From assembly GCF_014279815.1 (NCBI RefSeq), contig NZ_CP047941.1, forward strand, positions 992,001 through 1,056,000: a stretch of 64,000 bases of DNA, in the 5' to 3' direction. Positions within the stretch are counted from its first letter, which is position 1, and each line of letters starts with the position of its first letter. Positions 18,795-29,197 of this stretch are shown here, in pieces. This DNA comes from Synechococcus sp. NOUM97013. GTDB lineage: Bacteria; Cyanobacteriota; Cyanobacteriia; PCC-6307; Cyanobiaceae. Below the pieces are notes generated by a model that was not told the DNA's origin, ran no database searches, and saw nothing but the letters and a program-made list of their open reading frames with translations. The translations under genes and the position numbers were made by a program.

Positions 18795-20549
18795 TCAGAA
18801 GGCGCCCTCATTGCCATTCGATGCTGAAGGCAGTGAAGCATCAGGTGTTGTTGTCTGATGCATGGTTTCGATGACCTCCTCGGCGAGAGGTTGACTTTCT
18901 TCAGCAGGAATCATCACCTCAAGATAGGCAGCTCCTTGATGTGCATTGATGGCGGCCAATGATTGCTCCAGTTCAGCAACGGTCGTCGCCCTTCCGCACC
19001 ACCATCCTTGGCATCCCAGTGCTGCAGGAATGTCTGCATAACGCCAAGCTGGCAACACGTTGTAGGCATGCCCTGTCTCACTGATCAAGGCCTCCACCCC
19101 ATAGAGCCCATTGTTGAGCACGATCACGACAGGTTTGATCTGCATGAATCCCATGACGCCCACTTCTTGCACCGTGAGTTGGTGGGCTCCATCACCCGTG
19201 ACCAGTACGACGCGTCGCTCGGGGTCTGCCAGCGCACAGCCCAGCGCTGCCGGTGTGCCCCATCCAATTGAAGACCAGAGCGTTTGGCTTTCCATGTCGA
19301 CGCCTGACGGTAGTCGTATGGCATTCAGTTTCAGTAGGCAGGTGCCTGTGTCTGACACCAGGACATCGTTGGGCCGAAGGAATCCCTGCAGGCGTGGATA
19401 AAAGCTCGATGAATCGGTGGGTTGATGCTGCTCTCCCTGAAGGGGAAGGATCGGATCGGGATGGACGGGGCGATGGTCATCCCATAGGCAGTGTCGTGTT
19501 GATGATTGCTCCAAACGCTTGGTGATGCCTATCAGCACATCACTGATGCTGACGCTCGTGAACACTTGATGGCCGGCTTGGACCCAGTCGGCATGCATGG
19601 CAATGATTGTCTTGGGATCGAGTGATCCACTCCAGAGCCCTGTGTTCAGATCCTCCAGAACCAACCCGCCGAAGTCGACGACAAGATCGGCGTCTTCCAC
19701 CACGCCACGTAAGGCTGCGGGTGTTGACCGAGCACCGTTGTACATCCCCAAGAAGGCGGGGTGCTCTTCGCTGAGCAGTCCCTTATCCATGGGAGTTGTT
19801 GCATAGGCCAGCCCCGAGGCGTTCAAAAAGCGTTCGAAGGTCTTGACGAGTCCGAAACGCTTCAAGGTGATGGTTGGCAGCACCACCGGCTTGGATGCAG
19901 CCCTGATCCGCGTTTCGAGGAGATCGAGTACTGCTTCGAGTTCTCCTTCAACACTGGCGTGCTGATGAATCGCTCCAATCGGAGAGCCTTGAATTGGCGT
20001 GCCGGTGATGGGCATGAGTGCCAGATCCATCGGAAAGGTGAGATAAGCCGGTCTGGATTCCTCCAAGGCCTTATCGATCACGCGTTCCAATTCGACGACG
20101 ACATTGTCGGGTGTGAGCCTTGCGCTGACGCAGCTGGCGGAGGCGGAGATCGCTTCGAAGCGGTCATAGGCACGATCGCCAAGGGTGTGATGGCAGATCA
20201 GCCCTTGACGCACAATCCTCAGGCTCGGTGTTCCCACGAGGTGAAACACGGGTAGACGCTCTGCCATGGCTCCCATCAGGCCATTCAGTGCACTCAGTTC
20301 ACCAACTCCATAGGTGGTGCACACCACGGCAGCCCCTCGACGGCGGGCATAACCATCCGCTGCGTAAGCCGCGTTCAGCTCATTGGCTGATGGCACCCAG
20401 CTCAACCGGGGATGCACCTCCACTGCATCGTTGATGGGAAAGGAGTAATCACCTGGCACTCCAAACACGTGGCCAATGCCGAGATCAGCGAGACGATCAA
20501 GGGCGTAAGTCACCACAGATGGTGTCATTTGGCCTTTTTGAATAACCAT
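18795..20549 (-). CDS. ThDP-dependent 2-oxo-acid decarboxylase
   Basis: The 584-residue protein follows the pyruvate/indolepyruvate decarboxylase layout. The N-terminal ThDP domain has GVPGDYSFP and the catalytic-type Glu in SANELNAAYAADGYAR, the pair of active-site His appears in LICHHTLGDR, and the C-terminal ThDP motif runs from GDGAHQLTVQEVG to NNGLYGVE. It decarboxylates a 2-oxo acid to an aldehyde; pyruvate versus indolepyruvate or branched substrates cannot be told. It stands alone and is not universal in picocyanobacteria, so gain by transfer is possible. Confidence 0.85.
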   Translation of the reverse strand: MVIQKGQMTPSVVTYALDRLADLGIGHVFGVPGDYSFPINDAVEVHPRLSWVPSANELNAAYAADGYARRRGAAVVCTTYGVGELSALNGLMGAMAERLPVFHLVGTPSLRIVRQGLICHHTLGDRAYDRFEAISASASCVSARLTPDNVVVELERVIDKALEESRPAYLTFPMDLALMPITGTPIQGSPIGAIHQHASVEGELEAVLDLLETRIRAASKPVVLPTITLKRFGLVKTFERFLNASGLAYATTPMDKGLLSEEHPAFLGMYNGARSTPAALRGVVEDADLVVDFGGLVLEDLNTGLWSGSLDPKTIIAMHADWVQAGHQVFTSVSISDVLIGITKRLEQSSTRHCLWDDHRPVHPDPILPLQGEQHQPTDSSSFYPRLQGFLRPNDVLVSDTGTCLLKLNAIRLPSGVDMESQTLWSSIGWGTPAALGCALADPERRVVLVTGDGAHQLTVQEVGVMGFMQIKPVVIVLNNGLYGVEALISETGHAYNVLPAWRYADIPAALGCQGWWCGRATTVAELEQSLAAINAHQGAAYLEVMIPAEESQPLAEEVIETMHQTTTPDASLPSASNGNEGAF

Positions 20550-20869: not shown

Positions 20870-22540
20870 ATGACAAAGTCCGAACAGCAGTCATCGGGTA
20901 TGAGCAGGCGCCAGAGCCTTCAGCTCGGAGCCTTGTCGATGCTGGGACTGCTCACGACGGGAGGTGCAAAAGCTGCTGACGCGGCGTCTTCGGCGACGGC
21001 GACTGGCAATGGCGCCACGACCGGTGATGCTCACAAGCTCGTCCCCGACCAGGGGGTGCGTGTCACCGAACGCCCGAAGGATTACATCACACCCAAGGGG
21101 CTCAAGGTTGAGCGTGAAATTGTCAATATCAGTGATCTCAAATTCAATCTGAATGGTTACGACCTGGGCAATCGCATTCTTGTGATGCCGCAGAAGATGG
21201 GTGGAGGTGTCAATCTGCTCGATCTCGGCACTGGCCGTGCTTTGGCATCACTCTGGTATTGGAACTATGGGGATTACAACCCCATCAGTCACCATATTCA
21301 GGCTTTCCCGAGCAAGAACCCTTATCAGGAGTTTGAGTTCATCAACAGCTGCCAGGGCGGCATGAACTCCCTGATCTACGGGATGCCCACCTCGGTCACC
21401 GATCCCCCTCCCGGATTCAATATGTACCGCGTTCGCTTTAATGGCGATGTGATGGAGCTGGAGGAGAACATTTCCGAGACCACTGGACTTGGCTTGGGAG
21501 TGCACACCACCATTCGTCCCTCCGATGCGAAGAGTTACTGCATCTCCGATGGTCAGAAGGATATCTTTGCCTGGTTTGATCGCGCTTCAACCAAGGTTCT
21601 TCAAGCTTTCCGTTATGACTGGGAGGGTAGTTCCTCCGATCTGGCTGATAACTGGAGTGGTGGTGGTGTTTTGAAGATCCACCGCATTAAACCCAACCCG
21701 CTGACGGATCAATTTGATCTTCGTGGCACGAAAGGGATCAAGATCAACTGGGAAATGGTTCCCATGGGTGAACTCTTCGTGCCGGAAGGGAAAATCCCCG
21801 GACCGAATGTGCGAGCACTCACAGGTGCTGACGCATTTGTGTGGCATCCCAGTGGGAAATGGGGAGCCGAAATCATTCGAATGCTTGGTGGGTGTGTGAT
21901 TCACGAGGTCGAGAATGGGATGACGCCTGTGGCCTACTGCGCCTTCCCGAGCGAGTCTCCAGACACCTACCCCGTTGAACAAATTGATGAAGACACATGG
22001 CAGGTGGTGATCGATAAGGTCTATTCACCAGGACATGAGCTTGGCTTCTCACCCGATGGCAATCATCTCGTGATGATGAATAACGGACTTGAGAACAGCG
22101 TCGGCATTTTTGACAGCTCAGATCCTGATCCCACCCAATGGAAAAAGATCAAGCAGATCATTGATCCCACCTGGGGGAAGCGCTACCCAAGCCCCTTCCA
22201 TATGGCCTTCACTCCGGATAGCAAAAAGATGTACTTGGTGGTGCTGAATCCTGCACCAGGTCGCAGTGGAATCATGGTGGTGGATACAGCCACTTGGACT
22301 CCGATCAAAGAACTGCAGAACATCACGCAAGACATGCAGTCCTGCACGGTGACACCAGACGGAAAGTTTCTCCTCGTCGCTGTGGGTGGTTTCCAGCGCT
22401 ACGCCTCAGGGGTGTTTGTGTTGGATGTGGAGAAGGATGAGCCTGTGGGCTTCATTCCCAACCCTGGAGGTCATCACGACCTCACCCTGGTGCCGACCAG
22501 CGTGAACCAGTTGCCCTTCTCCCGTTCCTGCGCCATGTGA
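20870..22540 (+). CDS. Tat-exported NosZ-like beta-propeller protein
   Basis: The 556-residue protein has a Tat signal (SRRQSLQLGA, residues 12-21) and a seven-bladed-type propeller with SPDGNHL, TPDSKKM and TPDGKF blade motifs. Histidines fall where nitrous oxide reductase places its CuZ ligands: His141-142 (SHHI), His212 (VHTT), His389 (GHELGFSPDG), His444 (FHMAF) and His535-536 (GHHDL). One of the seven expected positions, near residue 490, is not His, and the C-terminal CuA cupredoxin domain is absent. It may be a copper or other metal oxidoreductase. An ABC exporter gene overlaps its stop. Confidence 0.6.
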   Translation: MTKSEQQSSGMSRRQSLQLGALSMLGLLTTGGAKAADAASSATATGNGATTGDAHKLVPDQGVRVTERPKDYITPKGLKVEREIVNISDLKFNLNGYDLGNRILVMPQKMGGGVNLLDLGTGRALASLWYWNYGDYNPISHHIQAFPSKNPYQEFEFINSCQGGMNSLIYGMPTSVTDPPPGFNMYRVRFNGDVMELEENISETTGLGLGVHTTIRPSDAKSYCISDGQKDIFAWFDRASTKVLQAFRYDWEGSSSDLADNWSGGGVLKIHRIKPNPLTDQFDLRGTKGIKINWEMVPMGELFVPEGKIPGPNVRALTGADAFVWHPSGKWGAEIIRMLGGCVIHEVENGMTPVAYCAFPSESPDTYPVEQIDEDTWQVVIDKVYSPGHELGFSPDGNHLVMMNNGLENSVGIFDSSDPDPTQWKKIKQIIDPTWGKRYPSPFHMAFTPDSKKMYLVVLNPAPGRSGIMVVDTATWTPIKELQNITQDMQSCTVTPDGKFLLVAVGGFQRYASGVFVLDVEKDEPVGFIPNPGGHHDLTLVPTSVNQLPFSRSCAM

Positions 22541-23748
22541 ACGTCGCTCGGGTGTTTTTCGTACGACTCGTTCTCCGAAACATCAGCCGCCGCCTGGTCC
22601 GATCGATGGTGTTGATCACCGCGGTCGGACTCGTGGCGGCTATGGGGTTTCTCAGCGTGCTCGATCTGGGGGGATTGCAGCAATCCATGGAGCTCGGTTT
22701 CGAGCGTCTTGGCGCCGACTTGCTGGTGGTCGATCGCACCGCCAAGGTCAATCTCACGCAAGCGCTGTTGGCTGTTGAGCCCGATACGCCTGCTTTGCCA
22801 ATGGAGGTGTTGGAGGCCGCAGCGCAACTGCCGCCGTCGATCCTTTTGAGCACTCAACGCGCTGTGCGAGGCGATGCCGAGTTCGCCACCAATATGGGCT
22901 TGTCTCACGGGGCCAGCATCCCGCTCTATGGAATCGACCCGGAGCACGACAGCACTGTGCAGCCCTGGCTGAATGAGCAGCGTGGCATTGACTTTCAAGA
23001 TGGCCAGGTGATTCTCGGCCACCGATTGCGGGGGCGTCTCGGAGATCGACTTCGCTTGCAGGGGCAAACATTCCAGATCTACGGCCACTTGGCAGCAAGC
23101 GGTGTTCCTTCCCACGAGCATGGCCTGTTTTTCACACTCCGCGATCTCAACAACCTTGTTCCGAGTGGTGATCCGGACACCCTCGGCATCAACGGTCTGC
23201 TGGTGCAGGCGCCTCCGGAGTTCACGATTGAGCGATTGCGTTTCAGCTTGTTAGCTCAACTTCCTGATGCCTCGGTGACAGGAGGGCGGACCCTGCTGGC
23301 GATGGTGCGCCAGGGGGGGCAGTTGAGCCTGAAGCTGGTGAGTGCTTTCAGCGTCCCTTTGCTGAGCAGCGTTTTGCTGTTGATCAGCCTTTACAGCTTT
23401 GGCATCGCCGCTGAACGGCGGCAAGAGCTGGGGTTGCTGCTCAGTCTTGGGGCGACACCTCGGCAGTTGATGGGGTTACTCACCGCTGAGACCAGTCTTC
23501 TTTGCGCTGCGGGCAGTGGGTTGGGCATCGGGCTCGCTTCGCTCCTGCGTCAGCCGCTGGAGCAACTGCTTGCACTGCGCCTGCTCGAAGCAGGTCTCAC
23601 GTTGCCCCATCCCTCCCCCGCGCAACTGGTTCGCGATGGGCTTGTGATCTGGCTTTTGATCACCGCGGTTGGGACCATCGCCTCGGCGCTGTCGGCGTTG
23701 GTGTTGGTGGGTTCCGATCCGCTGCGGTTGGTGCAGAGCGATGGGTGA
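22537..23748 (+). CDS. FtsX/MacB-type ABC permease
   Basis: The 403-residue protein has one N-terminal membrane segment (about 20-40), a periplasmic domain of about 200 residues, and three C-terminal segments around SVLLLISLYSFGIA, the FtsX-like arrangement of LolCE and MacB. GTG 22537 overlaps the NosZ-like stop by 4 bases and its end overlaps the ATPase by 8, so the three genes form one operon. Such transporters move lipoproteins, peptides or small molecules or power periplasmic partners, here perhaps the NosZ-like protein. Confidence 0.82.
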   Translation: MNVARVFFVRLVLRNISRRLVRSMVLITAVGLVAAMGFLSVLDLGGLQQSMELGFERLGADLLVVDRTAKVNLTQALLAVEPDTPALPMEVLEAAAQLPPSILLSTQRAVRGDAEFATNMGLSHGASIPLYGIDPEHDSTVQPWLNEQRGIDFQDGQVILGHRLRGRLGDRLRLQGQTFQIYGHLAASGVPSHEHGLFFTLRDLNNLVPSGDPDTLGINGLLVQAPPEFTIERLRFSLLAQLPDASVTGGRTLLAMVRQGGQLSLKLVSAFSVPLLSSVLLLISLYSFGIAAERRQELGLLLSLGATPRQLMGLLTAETSLLCAAGSGLGIGLASLLRQPLEQLLALRLLEAGLTLPHPSPAQLVRDGLVIWLLITAVGTIASALSALVLVGSDPLRLVQSDG

Positions 23749-25084
23749 GTGTGTGCTGGAGGCCAGCGGTCTGCGGCGTCGTTACGACACTGTTGGTGTG
23801 CTCGATGCCAGCATCAACGTCGCCGCCTGCGAGTCGGTGGCGGTGCTCGGTCGATCAGGCTCTGGCAAGTCCACGCTTGTGGCCATGCTGGCGGGACTGT
23901 GCCGGCCGCAATCGGGAACAGTGACGCTGCACATCGATCAACCTTGTGATCTGTGGAGCCTCACAACGGCTGAGCGCTGTCGGTTAAGGCGCGGTCCCAT
24001 CGGGTTTGTCAGCCAGTTCACCAGCCTGTTGCCGGCCTTCACCACGCTTGAAAACCTCATGCTCCCGGCCCAACTGGCCGGAAAGGACGGCCAATTAGAC
24101 CTTCAGGCCATGGCCTTGGATGGGCTGAAGGCCGTGGGTCTCGAGCATCGGCGTGACACCTTGGCATCTCAGCTCTCCGGGGGTGAGCAGAGACGAGCCA
24201 TCGTTGCTCGTGGCTTGATGGCTCGACCGCGGCTGTTGCTAGCTGATGAACCCACCAGCAACCTGGATGAAGCCAGCGAAGAAGACGTGTTTCGCTGCAT
24301 ACAGCAGCTTTGCACCAGCGCAGGCACGGCACTGGTGATGGTGACCCACAACCAGGAGTTGGCGAAGCGCTGTGATCGCATGTTGATCTTGGATCAAGGT
24401 GTGTTGCGCGAGCCCGGCAGCGCCTGTGTTCCTGCACCCGCCAGAGCAACCAAACACCCCGATGGAGTTCACAAGGATGTTGCCGATCCGCAGCGACGTC
24501 GTCTGCTATTGGGAGGCTTCACCGTTGCCATGGCACTGACGGGAGCCACCGGGTTGGCAACGCGTGCTCTTGAGCAGCGGAAGGAGGTGGCTCACCAAGC
24601 TGGCAATCAAATTCAGCGTTTGGCTTTCAGTGGTCTCTCCGCTGAACTGACCAGCGTGGAACGGATGGGATCCAATGGGTACCGGGGCACGATCGCGGTG
24701 GAGAACCTTGATGCTCTGCAGTCGCTCTATCTGCTGCCCTTAGACGTGCAGATCTACGTCCAGCAGGGCAACCGATGGAATCCTTTTGCGGCCACCTGGA
24801 GTGACGCCAGCCGTGGAGTTGTGCAGCTGCGTCAACCTGAAGTCCTGCAATTTGAACTGCGCGAGCTGCCGGCGCAATTCACGGAATTGGTTCCGGGCTA
24901 CCTCCATGTTCGCGTCGACGTCACCTATGCCATCGCCGATGGTCCTGATCCTGAACAGAACCCCGTCGAGCGACGGGACTCGTTCTTCGTTTACCTGCTG
25001 CCACTCCGGCCTGATGCTGAAAAACTGGCCCAGAACAATTTTCCAGGGGATCCTCCACTGTTCATTCCGATGCCTCCCCATTAA
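23741..25084 (+). CDS. ABC ATPase fused to TM and periplasmic domain
   Basis: The 447-residue protein begins with a complete LolD/MacB-type ATPase: Walker A GRSGSGKST (37-45), signature LSGGEQRR (145-152), Walker B LLLADEPT (165-172) and switch His203. After a linker and a basic patch (QRRR, 251-254) comes one hydrophobic helix (about 255-274). A beta-rich domain of about 170 residues follows, not recognised from any family. By the positive-inside rule it lies in the periplasm. This fusion is unusual. A frameless gene merger by sequencing error is unlikely because the frame is continuous. Confidence 0.75.
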   Translation: MGECVLEASGLRRRYDTVGVLDASINVAACESVAVLGRSGSGKSTLVAMLAGLCRPQSGTVTLHIDQPCDLWSLTTAERCRLRRGPIGFVSQFTSLLPAFTTLENLMLPAQLAGKDGQLDLQAMALDGLKAVGLEHRRDTLASQLSGGEQRRAIVARGLMARPRLLLADEPTSNLDEASEEDVFRCIQQLCTSAGTALVMVTHNQELAKRCDRMLILDQGVLREPGSACVPAPARATKHPDGVHKDVADPQRRRLLLGGFTVAMALTGATGLATRALEQRKEVAHQAGNQIQRLAFSGLSAELTSVERMGSNGYRGTIAVENLDALQSLYLLPLDVQIYVQQGNRWNPFAATWSDASRGVVQLRQPEVLQFELRELPAQFTELVPGYLHVRVDVTYAIADGPDPEQNPVERRDSFFVYLLPLRPDAEKLAQNNFPGDPPLFIPMPPH

Positions 25085-25352: not shown

Positions 25353-25489
25353 GTCTGAGGGGCTTGTCCATGAGTTGTCCCTGGAATCTTGTGCAACTGG
25401 ATTTGACGATGTGCAACTGAGGTTTCCTTCGCAGGTTGTTGAGTCCCATCAATCAGCCGAGAATTGGGCGTCGTCTGCTCTTTGAGCGC

Positions 25490-26080
25490 ATGCGTGCGTT
25501 CGTTCTCAGCTGTGCAATGCTCTGCGGTGGTGTTCAGGGCTTTGTTGTTACCCCTGCCGCGCTGGGCCATTCCGGCCATGGCGATGAGTTCGTTCAGAAC
25601 GGCGAGGTCGGTCAAGTGAAGGCCTCGCCTGAGCAGGATCAGCTCTTGGGCATCACCACTGCTGCACCGCAGAGCGAGCTTGATGGGCAGTTGACACTGC
25701 CGACTGTTGCCATCGTTGATGCAAATGGAAAATCACTGGTGTTCGTTCGCAGTGGCAACACCTATGACCCGGTCTTCGTCGTTCTTGGAGCTGTAAAGGG
25801 AGATCGCACGGTTGTTCTGGAGGGCGTCAGCGCCAATGAACAGGTGGTTGTTTCAGGTGCTCTCTCGCTTTATGCCGAGTCTCAGAAGAAGGATCGCGTT
25901 CCTGTTGAGGCAAGCCCAGCAAGCACCGCTTCGGCCAAGCCAGCTCAGGCTGACGATCAATCGGCACAAACCAGGACTCCGGCATGGCTACTCCCGGGAG
26001 GTGTTGGTGTTGCTGTGCTCGTGATCCTTGCTGTGGGATTGAGCCTTCGCAGCCGTGGTTCTGGATCCAAGCAAAGCTGA
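25490..26080 (+). CDS. short RND periplasmic adaptor-like protein
   Basis: The 196-residue protein has a signal peptide and the His-containing GHSGHGDEF typical of heavy-metal adaptor N-termini. It passes within a few residues to the C-terminal membrane-proximal domain (LVFVRSGNTYDPVFVVLGAVKGD) and ends in a membrane helix (LLPGGVGVAVLVILAVGL). The lipoyl-like and helical-hairpin domains of normal adaptors (about 350-450 residues) are missing. It is probably an internal-deletion product and may be inactive. It precedes the CzcA/CusA-type pump gene by 12 bases. Confidence 0.6.
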   Translation: MRAFVLSCAMLCGGVQGFVVTPAALGHSGHGDEFVQNGEVGQVKASPEQDQLLGITTAAPQSELDGQLTLPTVAIVDANGKSLVFVRSGNTYDPVFVVLGAVKGDRTVVLEGVSANEQVVVSGALSLYAESQKKDRVPVEASPASTASAKPAQADDQSAQTRTPAWLLPGGVGVAVLVILAVGLSLRSRGSGSKQS

Positions 26081-26092
26081 TCGGACACCCCG

Positions 26093-29000
26093 ATGTTGAC
26101 CAGGCTGCTGAATGCCATCTTGCGTGCTTCGATTGCGCGCCGCTGGCTGGTTGTTTTCTGCTCGCTGTTGATCAGTGTTTGGGGTGTTCTGAACCTTGTT
26201 CAGATGCCCCTGGATGTGTTTCCTCCCTTCGCGCCGCCGCAGGTGGAAATCCAAACAGCTGCTCCTGGTTTGGCACCGGAGCAGGTTGAGCGGCAGATCA
26301 GTGCGCCGATTGAGGCAGCTGTGAATGGTTTGCCAGGTGTGGAGGTGGTGCGCTCAGCATCCAAACCTGGCCTCTCGATGGTGCAGGTGGTGTTCCGCGA
26401 TGCCGCGCAGTTGCAGAACGCCCGCCAGTTGGTGTCTGAACGGTTGCAGCAGCTCCGCACACAGTTGCCAGCCTCGGCCGATTCGCCGGACATTTCCCCA
26501 CCGCTTTCGCCCCTCGGCACCGTTCTCCAATAAGCCTTCACCCTGCCGGATTCGGCGACGGCAGATGAGCAATTGCGACTGCGCTCATTGGTTCAAACCA
26601 CCTATGAGAACGCTTTGCTTGCCATCCCTGGCGTAGCCCAGGTGACGATCTACGGCGGTGACCTGCCGCAGACACAAGTGCAGCTGAACCTTGCGGCACT
26701 GCAGCAGCGCGATCTTGCTCTCGCTGATGTTGTTCAGGCGATTCGCGATTCTCTGTTCAACGGCCGCGGTGGTGTTCAGGTTGCTGGCGGTCAAGAACGT
26801 TTGATCCTTCCTCCCACCTTCAGCACGAGCAGTGCTGATCTGGAACGGGCACCGGTGCGTTCAGCAACTGGTGAGATCAGCTCGTTAGGCGATGTTGCCG
26901 AGATTCGCTCCGGTTCAGCCATGCGGCGTGGGGAAGCCACATTCAATGCCAAGCCCGCTGTGGTGTTGATGATCAACAAACAGCCCGATGTGGATACCCC
27001 GCGGCTGACGCGGGCTGTGGAACAACGGGTTGAACAGCTCAATGCATCCCTGCCGGAGGGTGTGCAGGTGCATCAGACCTTCCGGCAGGCCCAGTTCATC
27101 GACATTGCCATCCGCAATGTGAGTGAGTCACTGCTGCTCGGCGTAGTGATCGTGGCGGCCGTGTTGGTGCTGTTTCTGATGAATTGGCGCACAGCCTTGA
27201 TCACCCTCAGCGCCATTCCGTTGTCGTTGTTGGTGGGTTTGTTGTTGATGCGCTGGCTCGGGCTGCAGCTCAACACCATGACCCTTGGTGGTTTGGTGGT
27301 TGCCATTGGGTCGGTGGTCGATGACGCCATCGTCGACATGGAGAACTGCTACCGGGGCCTGCGCCGCAATCGCCAGTTGCCCTCACCCCAAGACTCTTTG
27401 GAGGTGGTGTTTCGCACGTCAGTTGAGGTGCGTCAGCCGGTGCTGTTCTCCACCTTGATCATCGTGGTGGTGTTTGCCCCGATCTTCACGCTCACGGGCG
27501 TGGAAGGGCGCATTTTTATGCCGATGGGCATTGCCTACGTGCTGTCGATTGTGGCGTCGACGCTGGTGGCGCTCACCCTTTCACCAGCCCTCTGTGCTTT
27601 GTTGCTGAGTCGGGCTCCGCTGCCAGCTGAAAGCTCTTGGATTGAGCACACGGCAGCACGGCTCTACACACCGATCCTCAATCTGGCTTTGGCCACGCCG
27701 CGCCGTGTTTTGGCCCTTGCCCTGGCAACGGTGGTGGCGGCTGTCTTGATTCTCCCTGGGCTTGGGCGGGTGTTCTTGCCGGAGTTCCGCGAGCAATCCC
27801 TGGTGAACTCGATGGTGCTCTACCCGGGTGTGTCGCTCGAGATGACCAGCCGCGCCGGCACAGTTCTCTCAGAACGCCTCCAGTCCAGCGACGATGTCGA
27901 CTGGATTCAGGTGCGCTCCGGGCGCGCCCCAGGAGATGCCGATGGTGCGGGCGTGAACATCGCCCATGTGGATCTTGAACTGAGTGATCAGGCCATGGCT
28001 GATCGCCCGGCTGCCATTACGCGGATCCGTGAGGCCTTTCTCGCGCTGCCTGGTGTGGCCCCCAACATCGGTGGGTTCATCTCCCATCGGATGGATGAAG
28101 TGCTTTCTGGCGTACGCAGTGCCATCGCCATCAAGATTTCCGGCCCTGATCTCAATGAACTGCGCCGTCTTGGTGAACAGGTTCGTGATGTGGTGGCGGA
28201 TGTGCCAGGTGTGGTCGATCTTCAGCTTGAGCCTCTGCTGCCTGTGCCCCAGATCCAGCTGACGCTTGATCGTGAACGGGCGCTGCAGGACGGAGTCAGC
28301 CTTGCCTCGCTAGCCGAAGCGATCGACGTTGCTCTGCACGGTGCAGGCATCAGTCCAGCTGAGCCCGCCAGTGGCCGTGATCCCCTGGTTGTGACGCTCC
28401 CTCCTGAGCAACGCAGTGATTTGGATGCGTTGCGAAGCCTGCCGATTCGAACCGCCTCCGGCGTGCTCAAACCGCTTGGCGATTTCGTCTTGGTGGCCTC
28501 GACCCGTGGCCCGAATGAGATCAACCGTGAGGACGTGGCTCGCCGGATCGTGGTGTCGGCCAATGTGTCCGGCCGCCCTTTGGGCCCTGTGGTGAACGAC
28601 ATTCGCAGCCAGGTGGCCAAGGACATCCGGCTTCCGGTTGGCTACAGCATTCGCTACGGAGGTCAATTCGAATCAGAGCAACGCGCAACCCGTGCCTTGG
28701 TTCTCTACAGCCTTGTGGCCGCTGTGGTGATTGCGGGTTTGATGCTGGTGGCGGTGCGTTCCTGGCCGGCCACGGTGGCCATCCTGATCAATCTGCCCTT
28801 GGCCCTGGTTGGTGGGCTCGTCGCCGTTTTGATCAGTGGTGGGGTGCTGTCGGTGGCGTCCTTGATCGGTTTCATCACCTTGTTCGGAGTGGCCGTTCGC
28901 AATGGCCTGTTGCTGGTGGACAACTTCAATCGGCGTCATCAAAACGGTGAGCCACCAATGGAGTTGATCCGGAACGGCAGCCTCGAAAGGCTCAATGCGA

Positions 29001-29197
29001 TCTTGATGACGGCACTGACCTCATCCCTTGGCATGGTGCCGTTGGCGCTTGCTTTTGGCGCCGGCAATGAAATCCTTCAGCCTCTCGCCATCGTTGTGCT
29101 CGGAGGGTTGATCACCTCAACTCTGCTCACGTTGGTGGTGATTCCGGCGTTGTATGCATCCTATGGGCGATGGCTTCTGCCTTCTGAGGCTCGTTAA
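26093..29197 (+). pseudogene. heavy-metal RND efflux pump, CzcA/CusA type, in-frame stop
   Basis: Two open frames, 26093-26533 and 26573-29197, are in the same reading frame and are separated by one TAA at 26531-26533. Together they give about 1034 residues, the normal length for HME-RND pumps. The N-terminal part has RRWLVVFCSLLISVWGV and PPQVEIQTAAPGLAPEQVE; the second has VGSVVDDAIVDMENCYR (membrane helix 4 motif) and twelve-helix topology overall. The stop truncates the protein at residue 146. A sequencing error is possible, but the short adaptor next to it supports decay. Confidence 0.8.

Follow-up and report, generated by a model that had tools for sequence, protein, structure and literature searches.

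Thiocyanate dehydrogenase (TcDH, EC 1.8.2.7), characterized in Thioalkalivibrio paradoxus and Pelomicrobium methylotrophicum, is a Tat-exported seven-bladed propeller with a trinuclear copper site. To our knowledge, it is a rare case of a copper enzyme that makes no use of oxygen, and it has so far come from a few sulfur bacteria. Thirteen active-site residues have been listed for it (K103, H135, H136, Q156, H206, E288, D314, H381, H437, H482, H528, D529 and R544; PMC6504805), and an electron exit path via Tyr164 and His528 has been proposed (PMC9456337). In Thioalkalivibrio the gene shares its operon with a MacB-type permease, an ATPase and a protein of the type called MPPH here (after its Met-Pro-Pro-His C-terminus). 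The genes of this operon, which we class as His-type, are upregulated on thiocyanate in T. thiocyanoxidans (PMC5744179), and the ABC genes have been proposed to act in copper acquisition or in some unspecified part of thiocyanate metabolism (PMC5328954, PMC5744179). A second type of TcDH, that of Thiohalobacter and Guyparkeria (a divergent gammaproteobacterial branch, probably our loci L092-L096), can be aligned at all 13 active-site positions and keeps His482, and differs in its long branch (1.6 changes per site) and in having no ABC/MPPH genes nearby; Cus genes were reported there instead (PMC6504805).

The other described system that invites comparison is nitrous oxide reductase (NosZ) with its accessory proteins NosDFY, which likewise combines a seven-bladed copper propeller with, by analogy, ABC-linked assembly in the periplasm. 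The CuA domain is perhaps absent from some NosZ-like classes. MacB-type transporters act by mechanotransmission, and NosDFY is thought to do likewise.

Here we describe a locus in a window of 64,000 nucleotides from Synechococcus sp. NOUM97013 (contig NZ_CP047941.1, positions 992,001 to 1,056,000), the whole stretch of DNA analysed, whose numbering is used throughout. Its features of interest are:

20870..22540, + strand: Tat-exported propeller of the TcDH family, Gln branch, 556 aa (phmmer, AF2 model and residue set)
20903..20977, + strand: twin-arginine signal MSRRQSLQLGALSMLGLLTTGGAKA (sequence, by eye)
22337..22339, + strand: codon of Gln490, at the position of TcDH His482 (alignments)
22537..23748, + strand: ABC permease of the FtsX/MacB_PCD type, 403 aa (Pfam FtsX 5e-10, MacB_PCD 1.8e-7)
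23741..25084, + strand: ABC ATPase fused to a membrane-anchored periplasmic domain, 447 aa (ABC_tran 1.3e-27)
24443..25081, + strand: MPPH domain, a TM helix followed by an Ig-like beta-sandwich, about 210 aa (AF2 pLDDT 89)
25064..25081, + strand: C-terminal IPMPPH tail of the fusion (conserved MPPH-COOH)

Judged by its sequence and predicted fold, the propeller protein is a member of the TcDH family, from a branch with Gln at the seventh active-site His, and was misnamed when the original prediction called it NosZ-like. A phmmer search of solved structures matched it at E about 1e-130 to the TcDHs of T. paradoxus and P. methylotrophicum, with which it shares 43-46% of the residues in an alignment of about 455 aa. 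An AF2 model based on 25 relatives (mean pLDDT 78.6, mostly above 85 in the propeller) superposed on TcDH 8q9x with Z 55.4 and an rmsd of 1.7 A over 460 residues, the next-best fold being an unrelated propeller at Z 33. The similarity is full-length, the modelled fold is a seven-bladed propeller, and the N-terminus carries, judged by eye, an SRRQSL motif followed by a hydrophobic stretch, all as in the TcDH family. Neither Pfam nor NCBIfam assigned the protein to a family, both giving weak propeller matches only. Pfam found no CuA (cupredoxin) domain in it, and the protein stops with the propeller at residue 556.

The correspondence extends to the active site. Histidines 141, 142, 212, 389, 444, 535 and 536 align with TcDH H135, H136, H206, H381, H437, H527 and H528, and superposition on TcDH predicts that their side chains cluster. 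Twelve of the 13 active-site columns, including those of K103, E288, D314, Q156 and R544 (TcDH numbering), are kept in the window protein and do not vary in 66 aligned family members; H482 alone varies. The six-His pattern is thus not a matter of chance, since its columns are invariant in the 66 homologues and solved TcDHs are matched at the E-value given above. If TcDH is defined strictly, by all 13 residues including His482, the window protein stands at 12: its residue at that position is Gln490, with one extra residue inserted just before it. The original prediction was therefore sound as to the Tat signal, the missing CuA domain, the histidines at 141, 142, 212, 389, 444 and 535/536 and the one ligand position that is not His; it was also right about the kind of protein, a seven-bladed propeller whose copper site is made up of several His.

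The H482 column divides the family a single time. Thioalkalivibrio, Pelomicrobium, three Nitrospirota genomes and the divergent gammaproteobacterial group have His there. Gln (with the engineered PDB entry 6sji counted in) occurs in picocyanobacteria, Reyranella, Ancylobacter, Methylocella, Chelatococcus, the Nitrospirota genome REEB37 and the cyanobacterium SZAS-4, with rare Glu in one other cyanobacterium (L004) and in a Methylococcaceae MAG (L049). In a maximum-likelihood tree all His-type rows fall on one side of a single branch and all Gln/Glu rows on the other (support 99/95), and the separation is still supported at 96/95 when the trait column and the adjacent indel are removed. Two extra members, reached through the operon instead of the propeller gene, likewise have Gln. 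Besides residue 490, the Gln/Glu branch is marked by Asn159, Met296, Met299 (Gly in TcDH), Gly319, Glu390, Leu459 (Trp in TcDH) and Ser466, which are nearly or fully fixed there, unlike in the His branch, with the exception of Glu390, which the divergent gammaproteobacterial group shares. The columns specific to the Gln/Glu branch showed no significant clustering near the active-site residues (p = 0.13).

Exactly this exchange of His for Gln has been engineered into TcDH at the corresponding residue, according to the titles of PDB entries 6sji (H482Q) and 8yu5 and 8yu6 (H447Q, in the Pelomicrobium enzyme), although these mutants, unlike the window protein, are otherwise of the His type and lack the further residues that mark the branch. 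The Gln branch therefore carries in nature a ligand change made in the laboratory, and offers a direct test of the role of the seventh His. In the Gln/Glu branch as a whole, the change of ligand probably alters the nuclearity, the redox potential or the substrate of the site. In the literature searched we found no description of cyanobacterial members of the TcDH family or of the Gln/Glu branch, which is apparently undescribed; the family thus includes a seemingly unstudied branch in picocyanobacteria and many alphaproteobacteria. The suggestion of an undescribed metal enzyme accordingly holds for this branch, but not for TcDH itself, which has been described.

Based on these data, we think it probable that the window protein, as a member of the TcDH branch with a natural Gln or Glu in place of the seventh active-site His, is a periplasmic copper oxidoreductase, and that the ABC/MPPH genes deliver copper to it. 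In this mechanism, the six remaining His would hold copper inside the propeller tunnel, close to Lys109, Glu295 and Asp321. The enzyme would withdraw two electrons from a small anion that contains sulfur or nitrogen (thiocyanate or a related one) and pass them to a soluble carrier, which in a cyanobacterium would be cytochrome c6 or plastocyanin. The electrons would probably leave via Tyr170 and His536, the counterparts of Tyr164 and His528 in TcDH. By analogy with TcDH, the reaction is probably a two-electron oxidation, and its substrate may possibly be thiocyanate or another small anion. We put forward more tentatively, and with somewhat more doubt than belief, that the Gln/Glu branch is a separate class of copper enzyme, with altered nuclearity or ligation, a substrate other than thiocyanate, electrons going to the photosynthetic chain in picocyanobacteria, and an unnamed MacB-type ABC/MPPH loader in common with TcDH.

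The alternative closest to this mechanism is that of an ordinary TcDH, which would turn thiocyanate into cyanate and sulfur, tolerate Gln490 and supply cyanate nitrogen to the cell through cyanase. The 12 conserved active-site residues are consistent with it, as are the cynS gene of the host genome and the retention of Tyr170, whose TcDH equivalent lies on the proposed electron path (PMC9456337); we nevertheless consider it rather unlikely, given that every lineage with a published TcDH or thiocyanate oxidizer, up to the most divergent branch, keeps the His (PMC6504805). As a sign that thiocyanate nitrogen is used, cyanase turned out to be uninformative: almost the whole genus has cynS (23 of 24 congeners sampled, with or without the propeller gene), while the gene is missing from several genomes of the Gln/Glu type (G042, G424, G425, G426 and G429), so the two genes are not linked.

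A propeller that merely binds, stores or senses copper, without catalysis, would agree with the loss of one ligand and with copper-related genes not more than 10 kb away, those of a DUF411 protein and of a broken CusA-like pump. The catalytic neighbours of the copper site are, however, all invariant, relatives do not have these copper genes in their surroundings, and neither a signalling domain nor a regulator next to the gene was observed, which leaves the metal sensor of the original prediction without support and makes this explanation, in our judgement, improbable. Least credible by far is a NosZ-type enzyme that has lost its CuA domain: it shares the seven-bladed propeller and has His at comparable positions, but the structure and profile searches by which that identity was to be checked both spoke against it, as the best structures were all TcDH, no Pfam NosZ model matched at E <= 1, the NCBIfam model of lactonase-type L-NosZ left a below-threshold trace (17.3 bits vs a cut-off of 700), and the neighbours, instead of nosDFY, are a permease of the FtsX/MacB_PCD type and a third protein with an Ig-like MPPH domain.

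Returning to the copper oxidoreductase with its own loading genes, the ABC partner noted in the original prediction follows the propeller gene in overlapping frames, by 4 bases for the permease and by a further 8 bases between permease and ATPase, and a permease homologue lies directly downstream of the propeller gene in 51 of 54 relatives. Unlike in TcDH operons, the ATPase and the MPPH domain are fused in the window (as they also are in L005, L006, L007, L056 and L059, the proteobacteria having two separate genes), and no copCD or fccAB was seen beside them. All 46 homologues in the loci set end in Met-Pro-Pro-His, a second His being also invariant, and this C-terminus extends to the His-type operon of a Nitrospirota genome (L105) and to a T. 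paradoxus-type locus (L107). The free-standing MPPH homologue has no Pfam match, and a fold search with the AF2 model of the domain retrieved generic Ig-like sandwiches (best Z 8.8) and no specific relative.

The MPPH domain keeps close company with the propeller. Among 386 cyanobacterial genomes, the full domain occurs only in the two that are TcDH-positive (a partial match in a third, at 7e-4, looks spurious), and the order of G426, sampled with 397 genomes, has three full matches, each next to a TcDH gene of the Gln type. A fourth, partial match in that order (L119, 4604-4972, in G1092; 32 residues, E 7.6e-11) has no TcDH-like gene nearby and is possibly a remnant. The Thioalkalivibrio operon carries an MPPH protein as well (L050:15179-15925), which judging by gene order corresponds to G372_RS0106345 of T. 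thiocyanoxidans, a membrane-anchored gene known until now only as "hypothetical", whose expression rises on thiocyanate (PMC5744179).

Since the ABC/MPPH set is common to both branches and thus precedes the His/Gln split, it would more probably serve the copper loading of the exported propeller than the uptake of one substrate. The permease, the ATPase and the MPPH domain would then probably work together as a mechanotransmission device for bringing copper to the propeller, with the invariant Met and His residues as the sole pointer to the metal. Such a device would be comparable to NosDFY in role, and to this extent the analogy of the original prediction is a sensible one; it does not reach ancestry, as the permease is of another type and the propellers show no match between sequence families. 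The MPPH protein and its ABC partners are therefore candidates for the missing copper-loading apparatus of the TcDH family. In some cases the module is dispensable, as it is absent nearby in L048 and L049 (Gln/Glu type) and in the divergent gammaproteobacterial branch. In the Nitrospirota genome G661, the His-type operon (L105, 3234-9951) has three permeases resembling MacB, together with two paralogues of the MPPH domain, of which one is without the MPPH tail.

The propeller gene is patchily distributed, being found in 3 of 31 sampled congeners and in 2 of 386 sampled cyanobacterial genomes, and also in freshwater Synechococcus and Cyanobium strains. Compared with the nearest congener, its dN/dS is 0.035 (0.20 for the permease); the gene is thus under strong purifying selection and is not decaying. 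The flanking genes differ between most strains, none being conserved across the cyanobacteria outside the three-gene cassette, and the Methylocella tundrae homologue (annotated as a hypothetical protein) lies on a 304 kb plasmid (NZ_LR536451.1, 46622-48043). The simplest reading is a mobile cassette under strong selection. No relative was found in viral contigs. A MAG contig labelled "bacterium TMED88" (L005, TMED88, NHEP01000261.1), probably picocyanobacterial and misbinned, carries an operon with a propeller that shares 96% identity with the window protein.

Several observations concern the surroundings of the gene. A TPP enzyme resembling indolepyruvate decarboxylase (18798-20549, - strand) is divergent from the propeller gene, to which it is also adjacent in G004, while in G030 the distance stays below 10 kb; we considered it as a pathway partner and rejected it, as 15 of 31 congeners have it and most of these lack a TcDH-like gene. 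The DUF411 protein (PF04214; 14726-15310) lies 5.6 kb upstream of the copper-enzyme operon and belongs to a family that is presumably linked to the copper-resistance protein CopG. On the other side, an in-frame TAA (26531-26533) breaks the CusA-like heavy-metal RND pump (26093-29197), and the match of its adaptor (25436-26080) to adaptors of the CzcB/CusB type is confined to their C-terminal part; pump and adaptor make up a decayed metal-efflux locus adjoining the operon.

Among the relatives, alphaproteobacterial homologues (L009, L027, L034 and others) have about 100 aa before the export signal, an N-terminal extension that would be cytoplasmic if the predicted frame starts hold. Finally, a second, short TcDH-like fragment is found near the gene in L108 (11098-11409), reminiscent of the 52-aa TcDH-like fragment that lies upstream of the gene in Guyparkeria (PMC6504805).
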